In this document: one piece after another, positions 3,305 to 51,485 of the stretch
Numbering within the stretch: position 1 is the first letter of the stretch
Layout: each line of letters begins with the position of its first letter
Source: Agarivorans litoreus
Lineage (GTDB): Bacteria > Pseudomonadota > Gammaproteobacteria > Enterobacterales > Celerinatantimonadaceae
DNA: 64,000 nucleotides
Direction of reading: 5' to 3'
Assembly: GCF_019649015.1 (NCBI RefSeq)
Contig: NZ_BLPI01000001.1
Coordinates: 3,219,001 to 3,283,000, forward strand
Program-made: the position numbers and the translations under genes
Notes under the pieces: generated by a model
The model's database searches: none
The model's input: the letters and a program-made list of their open reading frames with translations, nothing else
What the model was told of the DNA's origin: nothing

Positions 3305-3865
3305 TTAAGCAAGCACCATAGGAGCAGCAATTTGGTCGGCGCTTTGTTGATCTTTTAGCTGAGCAACTAAGGCTAGGCTGAATTCAATGGCAGTGCCGGG
3401 GCCTTGGCTAGTAATGAGCTTATGTTCTTGGTCAACCACGACTCGGTCTGCACTTAATTGGTTTTGCGGTAGCTGCTGTTGAAAGCCAGGGTGGCAAGTT
3501 ACCGCGGCATCACCCAGTAAATTATGCTCTGCTAGTACTACTGCAGGAGCTGCACAAATTGCGGCTAACCATTGCTTTGCTTTACGTTGCTTAAGCATGG
3601 CAATGAGTGATTCACAATCTCGGAAAGCCTCACTACCGAGAACACCACCGGGTAATACCAACATGTCGTAGTCTGCAGCGTCTATTTCACTAATGTGTAT
3701 ATCGGCCGTCAGCTTTACGCCGCGAGAGGCAACAATATCTAAGCGCTTGTTGGCTTCTATACTCACTACGTCTACGATAATCTCGGCTCGGCGTAATACA
3801 TCGATAATGCTTACGGCTTCAATTTCTTCACTGCCAGAGGCTATAGCTACCATCACTTTAGTCAT
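3305..3865 (-). CDS. yajL: DJ-1/PfpI family protein YajL
   Basis: A 186-residue member of the DJ-1 superfamily closest to E. coli YajL, described as an oxidative-stress chaperone and protein deglycase-like enzyme. The conserved acidic residue lies in GSEEIEAV (about residue 14), and the nucleophilic cysteine in AAICAAPAVVL (about residue 104) occupies the expected nucleophile elbow. Length matches the family. Its start overlaps the 3' end of panE by 8 bp, so the two genes are probably co-transcribed and translationally coupled. The panE-yajL pair beside yajQ mirrors the E. coli gene order. Confidence 0.9.
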   Translation of the reverse strand: MTKVMVAIASGSEEIEAVSIIDVLRRAEIIVDVVSIEANKRLDIVASRGVKLTADIHISEIDAADYDMLVLPGGVLGSEAFRDCESLIAMLKQRKAKQWLAAICAAPAVVLAEHNLLGDAAVTCHPGFQQQLPQNQLSADRVVVDQEHKLITSQGPGTAIEFSLALVAQLKDQQSADQIAAPMVLA

Positions 3866-4781
3866 TGTGTTTCTCCAATCGCTGGATCTGTTGCAGCATG
3901 TATTGATTGTGTGGACAAGCCAATTGATGTTTCGCAGCCTGCTTAACTATATAACCATTAATGTAGTCTATTTCACTAAGGCGTTTGTGGTGTATGTCTT
4001 GCTGCATAGAGGAAAAGTTATTGGCCGTTGCTTTCGCTACCTGCAACACCGTTTTGTGTAGGTCATCGGCACTTAAATCAAGCTGTTCTACAGCGGCTAC
4101 TTGGCTAACTTCTTGACAAAGTGCGGCAATATCTTTGTTAAACCGTGTATCTAGCAATTCGCCGTTTCGGCATTGCTGCAATGCAGTGAGAGGGTTAATA
4201 CAGCAATTGATTGCTAGTTTTCGCCACAGAGCGGGGTAAATATTGTCTTGCCAACTTGCGCTTGGCAATGCTTGCTCAAGAGCCATCAAATCTTGCGGCT
4301 TTGTGGCGTTTTTTAGGTAAGGCCCAACAACCAGCTGACCCAAGCCCGTGTGTTTTAGTTGTAGTTGGGTATTCGTCTTTTCTTGAATAAGCGCGCCATG
4401 AGTATTACTGGCTAAATACAACTGCTGGGGAGCGAGTTTATCTATGATCTCATGGTCTGCGCCCATCCCGTTAACCACTAGCATTAGTTTGCAATTGTCG
4501 GGTAGTTCCAACGCAGATAACGCTAGTTTTACTTGATGGGCTTTTACACATAGCAGTAACCAACGGCAACTAGGCAAGCTGCAAAATACCTTTAAGTTGT
4601 TTGTAATGACGCCATATTCAAGGCTATCGAGTTGCAGTGTTAGGTCTTGATTATGCTTTAAGCGGGAGTCAACAAAACACACTTTTTGTTGTTGATGGCT
4701 CAACAAGCTGGCCAGTAAGCCACCTACGGCACCCGCGCCAATGATGGCAAAGTCGTAATAGGGTTTTGCAGAAACAGTCAT
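3858..4781 (-). CDS. panE: 2-dehydropantoate 2-reductase
   Basis: NADPH-dependent reduction of ketopantoate to pantoate, a step of pantothenate and CoA synthesis. The N-terminus carries the Rossmann motif GAGAVGG (about residues 13-19 of the 307-residue form). Further on come the CVKAHQ segment, with the family lysine, and WRKLAINCCINPLTAL, containing the second catalytic-lysine region. The family's usual length is about 300. I place the start at the ATG at 4781; a GTG four codons upstream at 4793 is an alternative. It is transcribed divergently from yajQ and overlaps yajL. Confidence 0.9.
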   Translation of the reverse strand: MTVSAKPYYDFAIIGAGAVGGLLASLLSHQQQKVCFVDSRLKHNQDLTLQLDSLEYGVITNNLKVFCSLPSCRWLLLCVKAHQVKLALSALELPDNCKLMLVVNGMGADHEIIDKLAPQQLYLASNTHGALIQEKTNTQLQLKHTGLGQLVVGPYLKNATKPQDLMALEQALPSASWQDNIYPALWRKLAINCCINPLTALQQCRNGELLDTRFNKDIAALCQEVSQVAAVEQLDLSADDLHKTVLQVAKATANNFSSMQQDIHHKRLSEIDYINGYIVKQAAKHQLACPHNQYMLQQIQRLEKHND

Positions 4782-4902
4782 AAATAGACTCACTAATCTA
4801 ACAAAATTGGCGCTAGCGTTACCGCAAGCGATACTCTTTTAGTGGTAACGGGATATAATGCAGCAATTTTCGCATAAGGCCAGATTTTAGGGGAGAGAAA
4901 AC

Positions 4903-5385
4903 ATGCCTTCATTTGACATTGTTTCTGAGATAGATGCTAACGAAGTTCGCCATGCTTGTGATAACGCGATACGAGAACTGGAAACACGTTTTGATTTTCG
5001 TGGTGTAGAAGCCAGCTTCGAATACAAAGATGAGTCAATTAAGATGACTGCTGAGGCTGAGTTTCAGTTACAGCAAATGCTACATATTTTGCGTGGCACT
5101 TTAGTAAAGCGCTCGGTTGATGCTAAGTCGATTGATTTAGCTTCGGTAACCCGTAGCGGCAAAACACACTCTCAAGTGGTTAACTTTAAAAATGGGATTG
5201 ATCAAGCCACCGCTAAAAAAGTGGTTAAGCAGATCAAAGATGCCAAGCTAAAAGTTCAGGCCTCTATTCAAGGTGAACAAGTACGTGTTACCGGCAAAAA
5301 GCGTGATGACCTGCAAGCGGCAATGGCATTGGTACGCAGTGGTGAATACGACCAACCGTTCCAGTTTAATAACTTTCGCGACTAA
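4903..5385 (+). CDS. yajQ: YajQ family nucleotide-binding protein
   Basis: A 160-residue protein matching YajQ (UPF0234) from end to end, including the N-terminal [11 protein letters not shown], the FDFRG block and the C-terminal [10 protein letters not shown]. Members bind nucleotides or tRNA in vitro, and a Xanthomonas homologue binds cyclic di-GMP; which applies here is not known. The ATG follows a GGGGAGAG ribosome-binding site. The gene stands alone, divergent from panE, and ends in a clear terminator. Confidence 0.95.
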
Positions 5386-30625: not shown

Positions 30626-30867
30626 TGAATGCTCTGTGCGTTGCTAATAATCCCTTAGCCAGTTTGCCTGCTAGCCAAGTGGAGAGGTAGTCAATTACAG
30701 GTAGAGTTAGAGCTGGATCAATGGTGAAAAAACACTTTAAGTTACGTAATTTGTTGCACTTTCCAAAGTAAACTCACTATTACACTTCACGATAAACCTG
30801 AGCGCAGTGGCGCTTGGTGTTTAGCGACAAAAAAACAGTATATCAATACCGCTTTTGACGGTGCCTT

Positions 30868-31008
30868 CTTTCTCCAAGTGCTTGCATTCTTTTGTACTGA
30901 TGTTTTTGTTACTTTTAGAGCTAGGTGGCTGATGAGACTTAGAAAAGGTGATAATCTGATTTTCATTAAATGCGTGATAAAAGGAATATTTCCTTTTAAT
31001 AACCTGTT
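30868..31008 (+). repeat. Integron cassette-array leader, copy A (attI-like)
   Basis: A non-coding block of 141 bp directly before the first cassette of array A. Over 119 ungapped positions it matches copy B at 48780-48943 at about four bases in five, and the last 21 bases (to CCTTTTAATAACCTGTTA) are identical. It contains GTGATAA twice, 26 bp apart (30948 and 30974), a hairpin AAAAGGAA / TTCCTTTT (30979-30997), and ends with a TAAC-CT-GTTA pair of opposed core boxes. The GTTAAGC core at 31006 fits GTTRRRY. This resembles an attI-type site without a neighbouring intI; the function is inferred. Confidence 0.6.
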
Positions 31009-31034
31009 AAGCATTCTCATCTCATGGATTTAGT

Positions 31035-31991
31035 ATGAAAGCAAAGTACAAGTTTCCGATATCTGGTCAAATAAAGTTAGAGTCAAGCCAAATGCTCCCA
31101 ATTAAGGAGCATGGATATGTTTATGAATTCTTAGTTGATGAGCGTTGTATTGTTACCCATATTGAAGTAACTGTCCCTGTCGAAGAGCAATGGTACCCCA
31201 AGTTGATAAAGACTGGTCCTAAGCATCACGAATTAGTTATTGATAATCCAGCACTTCACTTCGTACAAAGAAATTTGAGAGGAATAGAGGCCTTAATGTC
31301 TGTATGGGGATTGAGATATATTGATAAGCGAAACTTCGAGATTTGTTGGTTACCTGAAACACAAGAAGAAGAAAAAAAACTACATATTAAAAACTTCTCT
31401 TCTAAATCTGAAAGCATGAATATAGAAGATGTATCACCACTTTCCTTTGACCTTGCTGCGCGGGCAATAATTAAGTCTTGGGATGGAGCAAAAGAGTCTG
31501 TTGTATCCAGTTTTTACAGGAAAGGAACTGCAGACATGGAGAATCAAGAATACATAGATGCTATATACGACTTCTATTTAATTTTAGAATCTAGATTTGG
31601 TGATGGTAAATGGCGTGGAAACCAGATTAAGCAGAAACTAAAGTGCTCAAATGAACTAAAAGAAGCATTTTATCACGCTGTAACCAAGACACTGAACGGA
31701 CTTCTCAATAGAGAACTATTAACCAAACGGGCTACAAACAAAGCTTACAAAGACTATGACAACTTTGTTGACTACATAGTAGATCTTAGAGGCGAACTGC
31801 ATCATCACAGTGAAAAGAATAAAAAGGCTTGGAATCCGAACAAGCCAGAAGATTATGAATTAGAAGCGATTTATCTTCATGCAATTTGTAATCACATTAT
31901 TTTTCACATGACTTGGAAGCACATAGATGAGGAGTCTGTAAAACAAAACTATGAAAAACAGTGCTCAGAGTTTATTAGAAAGCATGCCTAA
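31035..31991 (+). CDS. Cassette-encoded HEPN-like protein, unknown function
   Basis: A 318-residue soluble protein, the first cassette of array A. I do not recognise the family. The N-terminal half is beta-rich. The C-terminal half is helical and contains DLRGELHHHSEKN (about residues 250-262), an RxxxxH motif of the sort that forms the active site of HEPN-domain RNases and Apea-like proteins found in phage defence. No ribosome site is obvious before the ATG. AT-rich compared with its neighbours, and flanked on the 3' side by an attC site whose first bases overlap the stop region. A defence role is plausible but inferred. Confidence 0.6.
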   Translation: MKAKYKFPISGQIKLESSQMLPIKEHGYVYEFLVDERCIVTHIEVTVPVEEQWYPKLIKTGPKHHELVIDNPALHFVQRNLRGIEALMSVWGLRYIDKRNFEICWLPETQEEEKKLHIKNFSSKSESMNIEDVSPLSFDLAARAIIKSWDGAKESVVSSFYRKGTADMENQEYIDAIYDFYLILESRFGDGKWRGNQIKQKLKCSNELKEAFYHAVTKTLNGLLNRELLTKRATNKAYKDYDNFVDYIVDLRGELHHHSEKNKKAWNPNKPEDYELEAIYLHAICNHIIFHMTWKHIDEESVKQNYEKQCSEFIRKHA

Positions 31992-32043
31992 CAAGTCGCT
32001 GCAACAGATCGCTCAGCAGGCGTTACTGAGCGGAGCGTTATAC
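31987..32043 (+). repeat. attC site A1
   Basis: Starts with GCCTAACAAG at the end of the HEPN-like gene and ends in GCGTTATAC (core GTTATAC at 32037). The internal inverted repeat CGCTCAG / CTGAGCG closes a hairpin. About 57 bp, the short end of the normal attC range. Confidence 0.85.
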
Positions 32044-32056
32044 GTACATGGACTAG

Positions 32057-32506
32057 ATGGATAACATGGAAAAAATACTAACAAATCTAAATGATCCTGC
32101 TTGGTGGTTCACTGGAGTTTTTTTTGGCTTGTTACTTAAATTTGCTCCAATGGCTTTTTTGTATTTAAGAATGAGAGTTGGTAAAGGCCTACGCAAATTT
32201 TTCAGAGGTCGTAGATACAAATACAAACGATTCTTGAAAGAAAATCGGCACAATATAGCCGCTGTAAACCACCAGTCTGCCAAATCCCACGCTTATTTCC
32301 AGTTGGTTGTGATTACATGCGCTCTATACCTTGTCTGGTATGCAGCAGGCCCTCTTTTTCAGATACAAAAAGCCAGTTTAGTTTTGTTCCTAATTTGTTT
32401 ATTACCAATGTACACAGTGCAGGTTTATTGGATGCTTCAAGAGGGAAAGGCTAAGGATCTTGTGGCTGAATATGGCAAAGTACGTCTAACAAACAAATCA
32501 TACTAG
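32057..32506 (+). CDS. Cassette-encoded membrane protein, unknown function
   Basis: A 149-residue protein with three hydrophobic segments (about 17-37, 80-98, 103-124). A strongly basic stretch (RGRRYKYKRFLKENR) lies between the first and second segments, probably on the cytoplasmic side. No family recognised. The second cassette of array A; the 3' end of the coding sequence (TNKSY) runs into the start of the following attC-like site, a common layout in integron cassettes. The start could be ATG 32057 or ATG 32066. Confidence 0.6.
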   Translation: MDNMEKILTNLNDPAWWFTGVFFGLLLKFAPMAFLYLRMRVGKGLRKFFRGRRYKYKRFLKENRHNIAAVNHQSAKSHAYFQLVVITCALYLVWYAAGPLFQIQKASLVLFLICLLPMYTVQVYWMLQEGKAKDLVAEYGKVRLTNKSY

Positions 32507-48672: not shown

Positions 48673-48779
48673 CTTACATCTGCATTTATTCGCGAAAACT
48701 ACTGTGGAAAGAGTGCTTAGCTAAAGACATAGAAATTACCTATTTTCTGTGATTTTATACAGGCAATCTGCGATTCCTA

Positions 48780-48943
48780 CTTTCTACAAGTGATTGCATA
48801 CTTTCATGCTGATGTTTTTGTTGTTTTTCGAGCTAGGTGGCTGATGTAGCTAAGGAAAAGTGATAACCTTGTTTTTATCAAATGTATGATAAGAGGAAAA
48901 ATTCCTTGTTTAAACAAGGAATTTTTCCTTTTAATAACCTGTT
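48780..48943 (+). repeat. Integron cassette-array leader, copy B (attI-like)
   Basis: The second copy of the leader found before array A. It has the same start (CTTTCTACAAGTG), the GAGCTAGGTGGCTGATG block, TGATAA-type repeats at 48860 and 48886 (again 26 bp apart) and the same last 21 bases up to GTTA at 48941. It differs by an insertion that turns the short hairpin of copy A into a 34-bp palindrome. The first cassette gene starts 18 bp after the GTTA core. No integrase gene is adjacent. Confidence 0.6.
48895..48928. repeat. Perfect 34-bp palindrome in leader B
   Basis: Arms GGAAAAATTCCTTGTTT and AAACAAGGAATTTTTCC meet at a TTTAAA centre with no mismatch. It is 13 bp from the GTTA core. Leader A has the much smaller hairpin AAAAGGAA-TAT-TTCCTTTT at the same place. 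Confidence 0.85.
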
Positions 48944-48958
48944 ATGTGTACTCGAGCT

Positions 48959-49114
48959 ATGAGATTCACAGTTTTAGCCTGCATCCTTCTGGCCGGATGT
49001 TTTGAATCAAAAATAGACTCCTGTTTAGATCAAGGAGGTAGCTTCAATTACGAAAAATGTGAGTGTGATTTTAAGGTAAGCCATGAGTATAAAGAGGCAC
49101 ATAACTGCGTATAA
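48959..49114 (+). CDS. Cassette-encoded 51-residue lipoprotein
   Basis: A very small lipoprotein in the first cassette of array B. It starts MRFTVLACILLAGC, in which ILLAGC is a good lipobox with the cysteine at residue 14. The mature chain of 38 residues has five further cysteines (SKIDSCLDQGG, YEKCECDF, EAHNCV plus the anchor), so it may be disulfide-rich. It overlaps the next gene by 32 bp in another frame. No family recognised and no strong ribosome site seen; the lipobox is the main support. Confidence 0.55.
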   Translation: MRFTVLACILLAGCFESKIDSCLDQGGSFNYEKCECDFKVSHEYKEAHNCV

Positions 49115-49325
49115 ATATCTTCTAATTATAAGTGTGCTACTTGGGCTTATTGCTGGCTGCTTAATAATGTATGTGGCTTGGCTGCATAACCCCCAGTGTG
49201 AAATTCACTGTGAGGATATAATTTACTGGGGCTATTTGCTACTATTGGGCTTGTCAGCATTCACGCCAGTGTTCCTCGCTGTATTTGTTTTAGGGTGGGT
49301 GATCAACTATGTCAAAAACACATAA
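49083..49325 (+). CDS. Cassette-encoded two-helix membrane protein
   Basis: An 80-residue membrane protein with two hydrophobic segments (about 11-33 and 46-75) and two cysteines between them (NPQCEIHCEDIIYW) predicted outside. AAGGTAAG precedes the ATG at 49083. It overlaps the small lipoprotein by 32 bp and its 3' end enters the attC site, so the two genes are one cassette, possibly acting together. Family unknown. Confidence 0.6.
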   Translation: MSIKRHITAYKYLLIISVLLGLIAGCLIMYVAWLHNPQCEIHCEDIIYWGYLLLLGLSAFTPVFLAVFVLGWVINYVKNT

Positions 49326-49436
49326 CAAGCGCCTCCAGCGGACACGCAAGCTTCCGCGGATTTTTGTCCATTCCGCTGCGCTGCATTCTACACAAATCTG
49401 CTCCAGCTTGAGTGCACGCTGAGCCGAGCGTTAGGT
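49322..49436 (+). repeat. attC site B1
   Basis: Starts ATAACAAGCGCC and ends GAGCGTTAGGT (core GTTAGGT at 49430). About 115 bp, the long end of the normal range, with several internal inverted repeats such as CTCCAGC and GCTGAG-type arms. Confidence 0.85.
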
Positions 49437-49469: not shown

Positions 49470-49847
49470 ATGATGGGATTTTGGAAGGGATTCGTTTCGG
49501 CGATGCTGGTTGTGCTCTTCGCATGCTTGTTGTTTTCCGATGGTGAACCTCCCATATTCAAACTCATCTTTAATGGCTTCGAGGAGAGGCCAATTGAGAG
49601 TGTATTAGTGGAAACTGGTGGTAGCACCATAGAACTTCACAGGCCTCAGTTTCATCTATACCTCGGGAAAGAACGTCCAATCTTAGAGTTGCTGATGCAC
49701 CAGCAGGAGGGTGCGCTGAATCTTCGTATAGTTACTCAAAGCGGCGAATCATTTTCGTTAGAGAACATTGAGTTTCGGGTCGGGGAAGCAAACTATATAA
49801 CGAGGCAGGACCAAAAAATCATAGCTGTGAAGGCGCACTGGCAGTGA
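49470..49847 (+). CDS. Cassette-encoded single-pass membrane protein
   Basis: A 125-residue protein of unknown function, second cassette of array B. One N-terminal hydrophobic segment (about 5-23) acts as a signal or anchor, and the rest is a soluble beta-rich domain (IESVLVETGGSTIELHRP, FRVGEANYITR). GC content is higher than in the neighbouring cassettes, consistent with a separate origin. A TAGGAACC ribosome site precedes the ATG. Confidence 0.6.
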   Translation: MMGFWKGFVSAMLVVLFACLLFSDGEPPIFKLIFNGFEERPIESVLVETGGSTIELHRPQFHLYLGKERPILELLMHQQEGALNLRIVTQSGESFSLENIEFRVGEANYITRQDQKIIAVKAHWQ

Positions 49848-49853
49848 GTATAC

Positions 49854-49938
49854 CTAACAAACAAAACCAGGACGCCGCAAAACAACGCGGCTGGACTCCC
49901 TCCGCGAGCTCCGGTCGCCCCTGTTTCGGGCGTTATAT
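49854..49938 (+). repeat. attC site B2
   Basis: Starts CCTAACAAAC and ends GGGCGTTATAT (GTTATAT at 49932); about 85 bp. Arms CCAGG and CCTG, with CGCCGC and GCGG pairs, form the hairpin. Confidence 0.85.
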
Positions 49939-49944
49939 TTCACG

Positions 49945-50382
49945 ATGAATTTCACTAGTCAGTTCGATACAGCGCGCTACCGGAGACTCAAAAGGCGGGC
50001 ACTCTTGTTAGCCTTTGCCCTTTTAGGTTTAGGCATTTCTTATTACCTGATTAGTAGTGATTTTTATGTGGCAGCGGTGCCTATTATCGGCGGGATCTTT
50101 CTGGCAGAATGGTTTCGCATATTCGAGCGTGCTGCTCTCGCGGAGCATCAGAGTTTCACGTTGTCGGTTAGCTCTGATGGGCTGAAGTACTGCAACAGCA
50201 AAACGGGATATGACATAACGCGGCCCCTTTCTGCTGTTAAACATGTCAGGGCGTCAATGTTCTTGGCTGTTCCGGTAGTAACAGTCGACTTCATCAACAA
50301 CGAACGGTTGCGTTTTATCTGTTACACAAACAGCGATGAACTGGCAACTCGTCTAAGTCCATCTGATGCAAGCGAAATATAA
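49945..50382 (+). CDS. Cassette-encoded membrane protein with a PH-like/YcxB-like domain
   Basis: A 145-residue protein, third cassette of array B. Two hydrophobic helices near the N-terminus (about 19-55, with FALLGLGISYYLI and VAAVPIIGGIFLAEW) are followed by a domain of short strands (SFTLSVSSDGLKYCNS, RPLSAVKHVRAS, RLRFICYTNSD). This layout resembles YcxB-like or bacterial PH-type domain proteins, but the match is uncertain. The ATG lies 13 bp after the attC core. Confidence 0.55.
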   Translation: MNFTSQFDTARYRRLKRRALLLAFALLGLGISYYLISSDFYVAAVPIIGGIFLAEWFRIFERAALAEHQSFTLSVSSDGLKYCNSKTGYDITRPLSAVKHVRASMFLAVPVVTVDFINNERLRFICYTNSDELATRLSPSDASEI

Positions 50383-50460
50383 CAAGCCGCACAACAAAAT
50401 CGCCCACAAAACGCGTGGGCTCGGACTCGCTACCGCTCGCCTGTTTGCGGAACGTTAAAT
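50379..50460 (+). repeat. attC site B3
   Basis: Starts ATAACAAGCCGCA and ends TGCGGAACGTTAAAT (GTTAAAT at 50454). The outer arms GCCGCA and TGCGG pair exactly; about 82 bp. Confidence 0.85.
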
Positions 50461-50470
50461 TTAAAGGAAG

Positions 50471-50788
50471 ATGAAGTACTTACCAAAATACGTGAAAATC
50501 GAAGTAGTTATACTTGGTGTTATAATTCCTGCAATGATTGCCAGTTACACCTTGTATCTTTTGCTTCAATCTAAAGCTTTCTTTTGGGGTAGAAGTTCAG
50601 CTATTTACTATCAAGGTAGCGATGCTGTCTTTGTTTCGCTTCTTTGGTTTGGGTTATCCCTGTTATTGTTTGGGCACTTTCTCGCTCGGCCTTTGCGCCT
50701 AACGTCATTAGCCCGATACAAATTACTTATGTTGGTACCAGTAATGCTTTTTGCTACGGGTTTAGTATCCGCGATAGTACTGGTATAA
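50471..50788 (+). CDS. Cassette-encoded three-helix membrane protein
   Basis: A 105-residue integral membrane protein with three hydrophobic segments (about 10-32, 50-70, 83-104). No family recognised. It has a strong AAAGGAAG ribosome-binding site before the ATG and follows the attC core of the previous cassette by 11 bp. Fourth cassette of array B. Confidence 0.65.
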   Translation: MKYLPKYVKIEVVILGVIIPAMIASYTLYLLLQSKAFFWGRSSAIYYQGSDAVFVSLLWFGLSLLLFGHFLARPLRLTSLARYKLLMLVPVMLFATGLVSAIVLV

Positions 50789-50792
50789 AAAT

Positions 50793-50865
50793 TTAACAAG
50801 TTCCGGCAACATCAAGGCCCGCTTAAAAACCATGCTAACGCCCGCCGTTGCGAAAAACGTTAGTT
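50793..50865 (+). repeat. attC site B4
   Basis: Starts TTTAACAAG and ends AACGTTAGTT (GTTAGTT at 50859). The outer arms GGCAAC and GTTGC pair; about 73 bp. Confidence 0.82.
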
Positions 50866-50889: not shown

Positions 50890-51411
50890 GTGGGGTCTAT
50901 ATTGCATGAAATAAAATTTTCTAATTTAGAAAAGCACTCCAAAAAGCTTCTATATTCGAATGTTATGTTTATTGCTGCGCTTATGTTCTCTTACAATCTG
51001 TGGGGGCGGTATATAGTCGATGACTTATCCCGGTGGATTGTTGGTTTTTTTACTGTTGTTTCCATTATTTTGTTTGTAGTTTTTTTTGAGCTTGACTGCC
51101 ATATCTACAAGAAAACTACCGGGTTAAGAAATACTAAAGGTGTGATACTTAAAGCTTGGCTATCTATGATAAGCATCGGCATATCCGTATTGCTTTGTAG
51201 TAGCGTTTTAATAATATACTGGCTGTTGAATTTCTATCTTTCTTCGGAGGTCTTTGACATCTTAGAGCTGGCAGAAGATGAGTGTGGTTATGCCGGTGGT
51301 GTTTTCTATGAGGGCAGCTTTCATAAAGCACCTTGTTATGAGTTAGAGGACGGTCAAGATATATACTTGGTTAATGGTAGGCTTGGCGGCTTGGTGTTTA
51401 AATTCAGGTAA
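50890..51411 (+). CDS. Cassette-encoded membrane protein, unknown function
   Basis: A 173-residue membrane protein with about three hydrophobic segments (about 25-45, 48-70, 90-115), followed by a soluble C-terminal part with two cysteines (DECGYAGG and HKAPCYELEDG). The best start is a GTG at 50890; a stop codon lies in frame just upstream, and a TTG at 50902 is the alternative. No family recognised. Last cassette of array B. Confidence 0.55.
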   Translation: MGSILHEIKFSNLEKHSKKLLYSNVMFIAALMFSYNLWGRYIVDDLSRWIVGFFTVVSIILFVVFFELDCHIYKKTTGLRNTKGVILKAWLSMISIGISVLLCSSVLIIYWLLNFYLSSEVFDILELAEDECGYAGGVFYEGSFHKAPCYELEDGQDIYLVNGRLGGLVFKFR

Positions 51412-51412
51412 A

Positions 51413-51485
51413 CTAACAAACCAATCAAGTACGCTCCCGTTGATCGCCGGACTCGCTCCGCTCGCCGCTGAGTTGGGCGTTGTTT
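51413..51485 (+). repeat. attC site B5
   Basis: Starts CTAACAAACC and ends GGGCGTTGTTT (GTTGTTT at 51479). The outer arms CCAAT and GTTGG pair with one G-T; about 73 bp. It closes array B. Confidence 0.82.

Follow-up and report, generated by a model that had tools for sequence, protein, structure and literature searches.

The window, the whole stretch of 64,000 nucleotides from Agarivorans litoreus that was analysed, contains a non-coding leader twice, and behind each copy cassettes with attC sites lie on the same strand (Table 1). Used as a BLAST query, copy 1 retrieved copy 2 at E=1.6e-28. An earlier reading made from the letters alone (the sequence-only reading) had aligned 30868-31008 with 48780-48943 at roughly 96 of 119 ungapped positions; the likeness held, and the figure was replaced by 118 of 141. 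The identity of the terminal 21 bases was confirmed, the last 20 bases of these intervals being identical and the following A making 21, as was the 26-bp spacing of the TGATAA repeats, which start at 30949 and 30975 in copy 1 and at 48861 and 48887 in copy 2. The opposed boxes TAAC-CT-GTTA are likewise present in both window copies, with TAACCTGTTA at 31000 and 48935. The palindrome had been assigned to both copies; it is complete in copy 2 and lacks 23 bp in copy 1, which also has no exact LexA-type box. Copy 2 starts with such a box, a feature absent from the sequence-only reading. A consensus scan of 48700-48960 revealed no promoter towards the cassettes (Pc) on the plus strand and one promoter-like site on the minus strand, with 1.1 expected in shuffles.

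Table 1. Leaders, cassettes and attC sites in the window (positions counted from its first letter).
Feature	Position	Strand	Remarks
Leader (attI copy) 1	30864..31006	+	homology to the genome's other copies begins at 30864; end from alignment and GTTA position; palindrome 23 bp shorter
Putative crossover, leader 1	after G31006	+	from alignment and GTTA position
TGATAA repeat pair, 26 bp apart, leader 1	30949..30980	+	possible IntI direct repeats
First cassette, array 1	31007..32037	+	putative ends, from GTTA and attC
ORF of first cassette, array 1	31035-31991		318 aa; Pfam matches all sub-threshold, HEPN-like included
attC, first cassette of array 1	31986..32043	+	covariance model R1, 40.7 bits, E=3.1e-7; training-set member (L044:6147-6204)
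ORF, probable second cassette of array 1	32057..32506	+	149 aa; without complete attC, no attC match behind
LexA-type box CTGT-N8-ACAG, left edge of leader 2	48747..48762	+	
Leader (attI copy) 2, complete	48747..48941	+	putative crossover after G48941
TGATAA repeat pair, 26 bp apart, leader 2	48861..48892	+	
Palindrome, 36 bp, leader 2	48894..48929	.	read off the sequence; pairs counted over 41 copies
First cassette, array 2	48942..49430	+	ORF 49083-49325; putative ends
attC 1, array 2	49320..49436	+	R1, 49.8 bits; training-set member
attC 2, array 2	49852..49938	+	cassette ORF 49470-49847; R1, 52.2 bits; training-set member
attC 3, array 2	50377..50460	+	cassette ORF 49945-50382; R1, 49.5 bits; training-set member
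attC 4, array 2	50791..50865	+	cassette ORF 50471-50788; R1, 33.6 bits; outside training set
attC 5, array 2	51411..51485	+	cassette ORF 50890-51411; R1, 33.0 bits; outside training set

The attC sites were scored with covariance model R1, built from 24 attC sites in eight arrays of the same genome (L036, L041 and L042 left out), and its matches to these 24 training sites are by construction. With five attC and no intI, array 2 belongs to the CALINs (at least two attC and no nearby intI); array 1, having one attC, falls short of this definition.

There are eleven leader copies in the genome, all on contig C1. The only integron integrase above the TIGR02249 cut-off (265; four more rows score below it) lies outside the window at G000:C1:881742-882683 (442 bits), confirming that neither window copy has an intI. 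One leader is divergent from this gene, at the attI position, with an ISL3-family transposase insertion between them, and the other ten are without intI. The insertion is flanked by an 8-bp duplication, which is identical to the spacer of a LexA-type box lying 14 bp upstream of the intI start codon (ATG); because the element sits in this box, expression of intI is uncertain. The relatives G002 and G004 lack the insertion, and about 30 bp separate their leader from the intI match. A copy beside an intI gene, for which the sequence-only reading had proposed to search, was thereby found, and the leader therefore corresponds to the intI-attI intergenic region. Together with G003, the leader lies between intI and the first cassette in four species, whose intI-attI region it constitutes; by its position, the copy preceding intI is attI.

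The same ISL3-family insertion was seen in four copies, three in this genome and one in G003 (L038 10027-11348, L214 326-1647, L215 355-1676 and L213 521-1842). In L038 and L214 the 8-bp duplication is the spacer of the LexA-type box of a leader, the copy in L215 lies inside a similar box one base shorter, and the copy in L213 is not in such a box; at the intI of this genome the promoter box is split by the insertion.

Behind ten of the eleven leaders of this genome the covariance model found attC, including the truncated leader L041 with two (31.2 and 21.5 bits); behind L042 it found none, and a simpler scan gave two attC-like matches there. When 150 of 1106 first-look candidates were scored, at least 37 attC matches were obtained in the genome at E<=0.1, 36 of the 37 lying behind one of three leader types (types 1, 2 and 3, names coined here). 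Type 1, the leader of the window, precedes 33 of them; one match follows a type-2 leader (G000:C1:227620-227833) and two follow a type-3 leader (about G000:C1:3364547-3364769), and at the match at 3626867 (E=0.05) no leader was recognised. The last 146 bp of type 2 resemble the attI region of an intI in G004 (84%), and type 3 resembles the attI regions of two intI genes in G003 and one in G005 at 88-90% and that of one in G002 at 68%. Arrays in L038, L040 and L169 have about 1.6 kb of sequence in common, near which in L038 (6130-7296) lies a 388-aa ORF resembling an IS110/IS1111-type transposase.

Among 40 genomes searched (this one and 39 relatives, with at most the best 20 candidates per genome), leader matches were found in this genome, in all six relatives of the same genus, in G007 of another genus and in G023 (a 36-bp match), and were absent from 31. 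After merging, G001 to G006 hold 9, 8, 7, 9, 11 and 6 copies and G007 one, giving 62 copies with the eleven described above; the nine leaders of G001 occur in a genome without an intI match at E<=1e-60. Plasmids, phages and viral contigs gave no match. An exact-pattern search with the leader end in 84,980 species genomes, a collection from which near records may be left out, returned four contigs, all of Agarivorans sp. Toyoura001. The leader-carrying genus is Agarivorans.

Many further copies followed by cassettes, which the sequence-only reading had named as support, occur in this genome and its relatives. The attC model gave 83 matches at E<=0.05 over 50 relative loci (51 copies), all 83 in the orientation of the leader; 82 lie downstream of a type-1 leader, at 38 of the 50 loci, and the single other match, in G007, has a type-3 leader before it. 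At this G007 locus (L135) a type-3 leader with attC (1775-2017) and a type-1 leader with cassettes (5001-5175) stand in tandem, with an ORF of 331 aa at 3829-4824 between them. A separate scan of 4 kb around the 62 copies gave 91 attC-like matches downstream on the leader strand versus 6 on the opposite strand downstream, with 9 and 12 for the upstream controls; such a match was present downstream of 46 of the 62 copies and upstream on the same strand of 8. Of the 62 copies, which come from eight genomes, 16 had no attC-like match within 4 kb in this simpler scan, and 15 lack a recognisable attI end. A share of the copies are therefore relics.

A dispersed repeat without cassettes, the outcome that would have spoken against the sequence-only reading, was rejected in view of the attC behind the leaders of this genome and its relatives. 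That the leader is a dispersed repeat lying before cassettes by chance, and no recombination site, is highly improbable: although it is multi-copy and non-coding and has other dispersed repeats nearby, attC follow nearly all of its copies in this genome, the homology of intact copies ends at the GTTA where the cassette starts, and in four species it is the intI-attI region.

The features of the window copies were compared over the 62 fetched copies. Exact TGATAA pairs at 26 bp occur in 24 of them versus none of 1500 background stretches, and in 36 when one mismatch is allowed in each repeat; their role as IntI repeats, as in attI1, is putative. The exact LexA-type box forms the left edge of 22 copies versus 5 of 3491 background stretches, and in several other copies the common left edge lies some 100 bp beyond this position. 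Conservation of the left core box is poor: of 45 copies with a pattern-recognised end (the ends of the other 17 of 62 did not fit the pattern), only 4 read TAACCTGTTA, so the opposed boxes, although present in both window copies with their TAAC, had to be dropped as a defining feature. The bases of the palindrome pair at 90.4% over 41 of the 62 copies, compared with 88.5% in shuffles and at most 63.4% when the pairing is slid. The number of two-sided-change cells and the covariation score lie above all 500 shuffles; the number of pairs with such changes (5 of 19) and that of pair types are unremarkable, being reached by 65 and 129 of 500 shuffles, respectively.

By their flanks the copies fall into 27 groups, 13 of which have two or more members (some groups are spuriously merged through repeats and an IS), and many copies occupy the same chromosomal place in several species. 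At such conserved loci the DNA from the leader to the resumed flank differs between species, and among 111 cassettes cut by attC positions only one same-locus pair in two species was alike over at least 70% of the shorter member. In a tree of 61 leaders, in which bootstrap was not settled and 25 of 58 inner forks stayed open, most supported groups follow the locus and not the genome. The exceptions are the leaders of G003, which group together, and, from this genome, window copy 2 (L045) and L036, which group with intI-type leaders and not with their orthologues. The position of window copy 2 is taken in G001 and G002 by a type-2 leader, and the homology of the flank there extends through the LexA-type box. 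Leaders therefore appear to have been exchanged at fixed places.

Two repeats were observed beside the leaders. One, non-coding and some 262 bp long, abuts the left side of the leaders in L035, L154, L155, L141, L134, L170 and L171 and is in places tandem; the other, of about 59 bp in the left flank of L039 (751-809 of the flank used as query), has, among the matches listed, dozens in this genome and several genomes of the same genus.

A shared cassette was found in G004. A 514-bp block is base-identical at C1:442671-443184, where it is the second cassette of the intI array, and at C2:339109-339622, where it is the first cassette behind an intI-less leader that is the orthologue of window copy 2. 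The block is bounded by GTTA at both ends, and its neighbours differ on either side. Of the 111 cassettes, no other was found in an intI array as well as behind an intI-less leader, and this one case matches the product expected of attC x attI recombination at that leader. Cassettes are described as joined at G/TTRRRY, the solidus marking the joint (PMC9892861), and both the end of leader homology at GTTA and the G004 cassette place the joint at G/TT of the R box. Homology and this one joint favour the proposal of the sequence-only reading, namely a stand-alone attI-like point arising by copying of the insertion site.

Cassette arrays without an integrase are usually taken as degraded integrons, and CALINs have been proposed to be such (PMC9024848). 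Applied here, whole integrons would have been duplicated or acquired repeatedly and the extra copies would later have lost intI, so that attI and cassettes persist as relics in decay. This is consistent with the LexA-type box, part of an intI promoter, kept in more than a third of the copies, with the truncation of some copies and with G005, where the intI locus holds a leader but lacks intI. However, a search at E<=0.01 that covered at least about 5 kb upstream found no type-1 intI remnant at 58 of the 62 loci, the other four having an intact intI; the cassette content of the same locus differs between species, and one intI-less leader has the G004 cassette identical to one in an intI array. 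We therefore regard ordinary CALINs as quite unlikely to account for the set. Most interspecies changes in IntI type 1 are synonymous, which counts in favour of the docking-site explanation given below: among four species, 5-10 bases differ in amino-acid-changing codons versus 29-54 in synonymous ones. LexA sites are reported to occur before intI (PMC3108266). Control of the cassettes through the LexA box was considered and rejected; as the V. cholerae LexA box is described as not controlling Pc (PMC3948777), we take the boxes of intI-less copies as traces of origin.

The copies may also have moved together with their cassettes. G003 and G007, of different genera, have a common block of 1564 bp comprising a leader and two cassettes, 95.2% identical. 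Its flanks are unrelated, so a leader and its cassettes can be transferred together. Because the ends of this block resemble imperfect inverted repeats, and several copies have the common left edge described above, leader and array could be a non-autonomous transposon with inverted ends, for which attI activity would be secondary. We consider this unlikely, since the right-end motif (at most 2 mismatches) follows the last attC at only 4 of the 62 loci (L122, L135, L170 and L121), by which the inverted repeats are weakly supported as a general edge of the unit, and since no clean empty site was found from which joints could be read. Left and right flanks abutted at none of 10 loci compared with 20 relative stretches, which held a type-2 leader (L173, L174 and L190), a diverged or shortened type-1 leader (L175, L177, L178 and L186) or other sequence.

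G008 and G010, which belong to a different genus of the family, also showed ends of a related attI type at several places. Of five places in G010, a genome with no intI at E<=1e-60, two have attC within 1 kb behind (L203 and L204), L202 has attC about 4 kb behind and two have none; of two further places in G008, L201 has attC matches before and behind and L207 has none. At L201 (5208-6771) the type-2 attI-like end has attC matches on either side, which gives it the look of lying within an array. The second genus seems to show a similar leader set, a lead that rests on matches of 43-63 bp.

Taken together, we consider it very probable that the leader represents the attI region belonging to the host's chromosomal integron, with eleven copies of which one stands before intI, and that its copies can act as stand-alone docking sites for an IntI acting in trans. 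IntI made at one place would recombine circular cassettes into G/TTA at the end of the leader; by homology the leader would work like attI, and integration in trans at every copy is what we infer. Leaders with cassettes and without intI would have spread as blocks and later been exchanged in place. The outcome would be a distributed integron of about a dozen short arrays instead of one, in which the docking site and not the integrase appears to have multiplied. A wider version seems to us somewhat better than an even chance: at least three attI types, each like the attI region of another intI, would have been copied to about two dozen loci of the genus as lasting trans docking sites able to outlive intI, as the leaders of the one species without an intI match would show, with types replacing each other at a fixed place and a similar set in the second genus, making the attI region a dispersible module.

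If many integrase-less arrays carry their own working attI, one integrase could add genes at a dozen chromosomal places with distinct neighbourhoods, and arrays could be rebuilt whenever an intI is present. As attI is described as poorly characterised outside class 1 (PMC9024848), the sequence common to the heads of all arrays of a genome may be a route to it. No description of numerous attI copies at the heads of separate arrays turned up in the open-licence literature searched.

In sedentary chromosomal integrons such as the Vibrio cholerae superintegron, there is one attI per array, next to intI. Like it, the leader copy beside intI has a divergent intI with a LexA box on one side and the first cassette on the other, and cassettes start at G/TTA; unlike it, ten of the eleven copies here are without intI. 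Genomic attG sites resemble these loci in that cassettes are inserted away from the integron, but attG is described as diverging strongly from att sites (PMC12901181), whereas the leader shares homology with the intI-adjacent attI region and lies at conserved loci. In ΔattI-type cassettes of class 1 and 2 integrons, attI sequence is likewise copied away from its place, and the copied piece is reported to be active with IntI (PMC12901181); there it replaces attC at the cassette 3' end, whereas both window leaders precede the first cassette. The arrays share with CALINs the presence of attC without intI; in Xanthomonas CALINs are likewise described at several conserved loci (seven other loci), and CALINs are described as mobilisable in trans (PMC12444791). 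Unlike CALINs as so described, where attI copies go unmentioned, the arrays here are headed by a homologue of the cognate attI.
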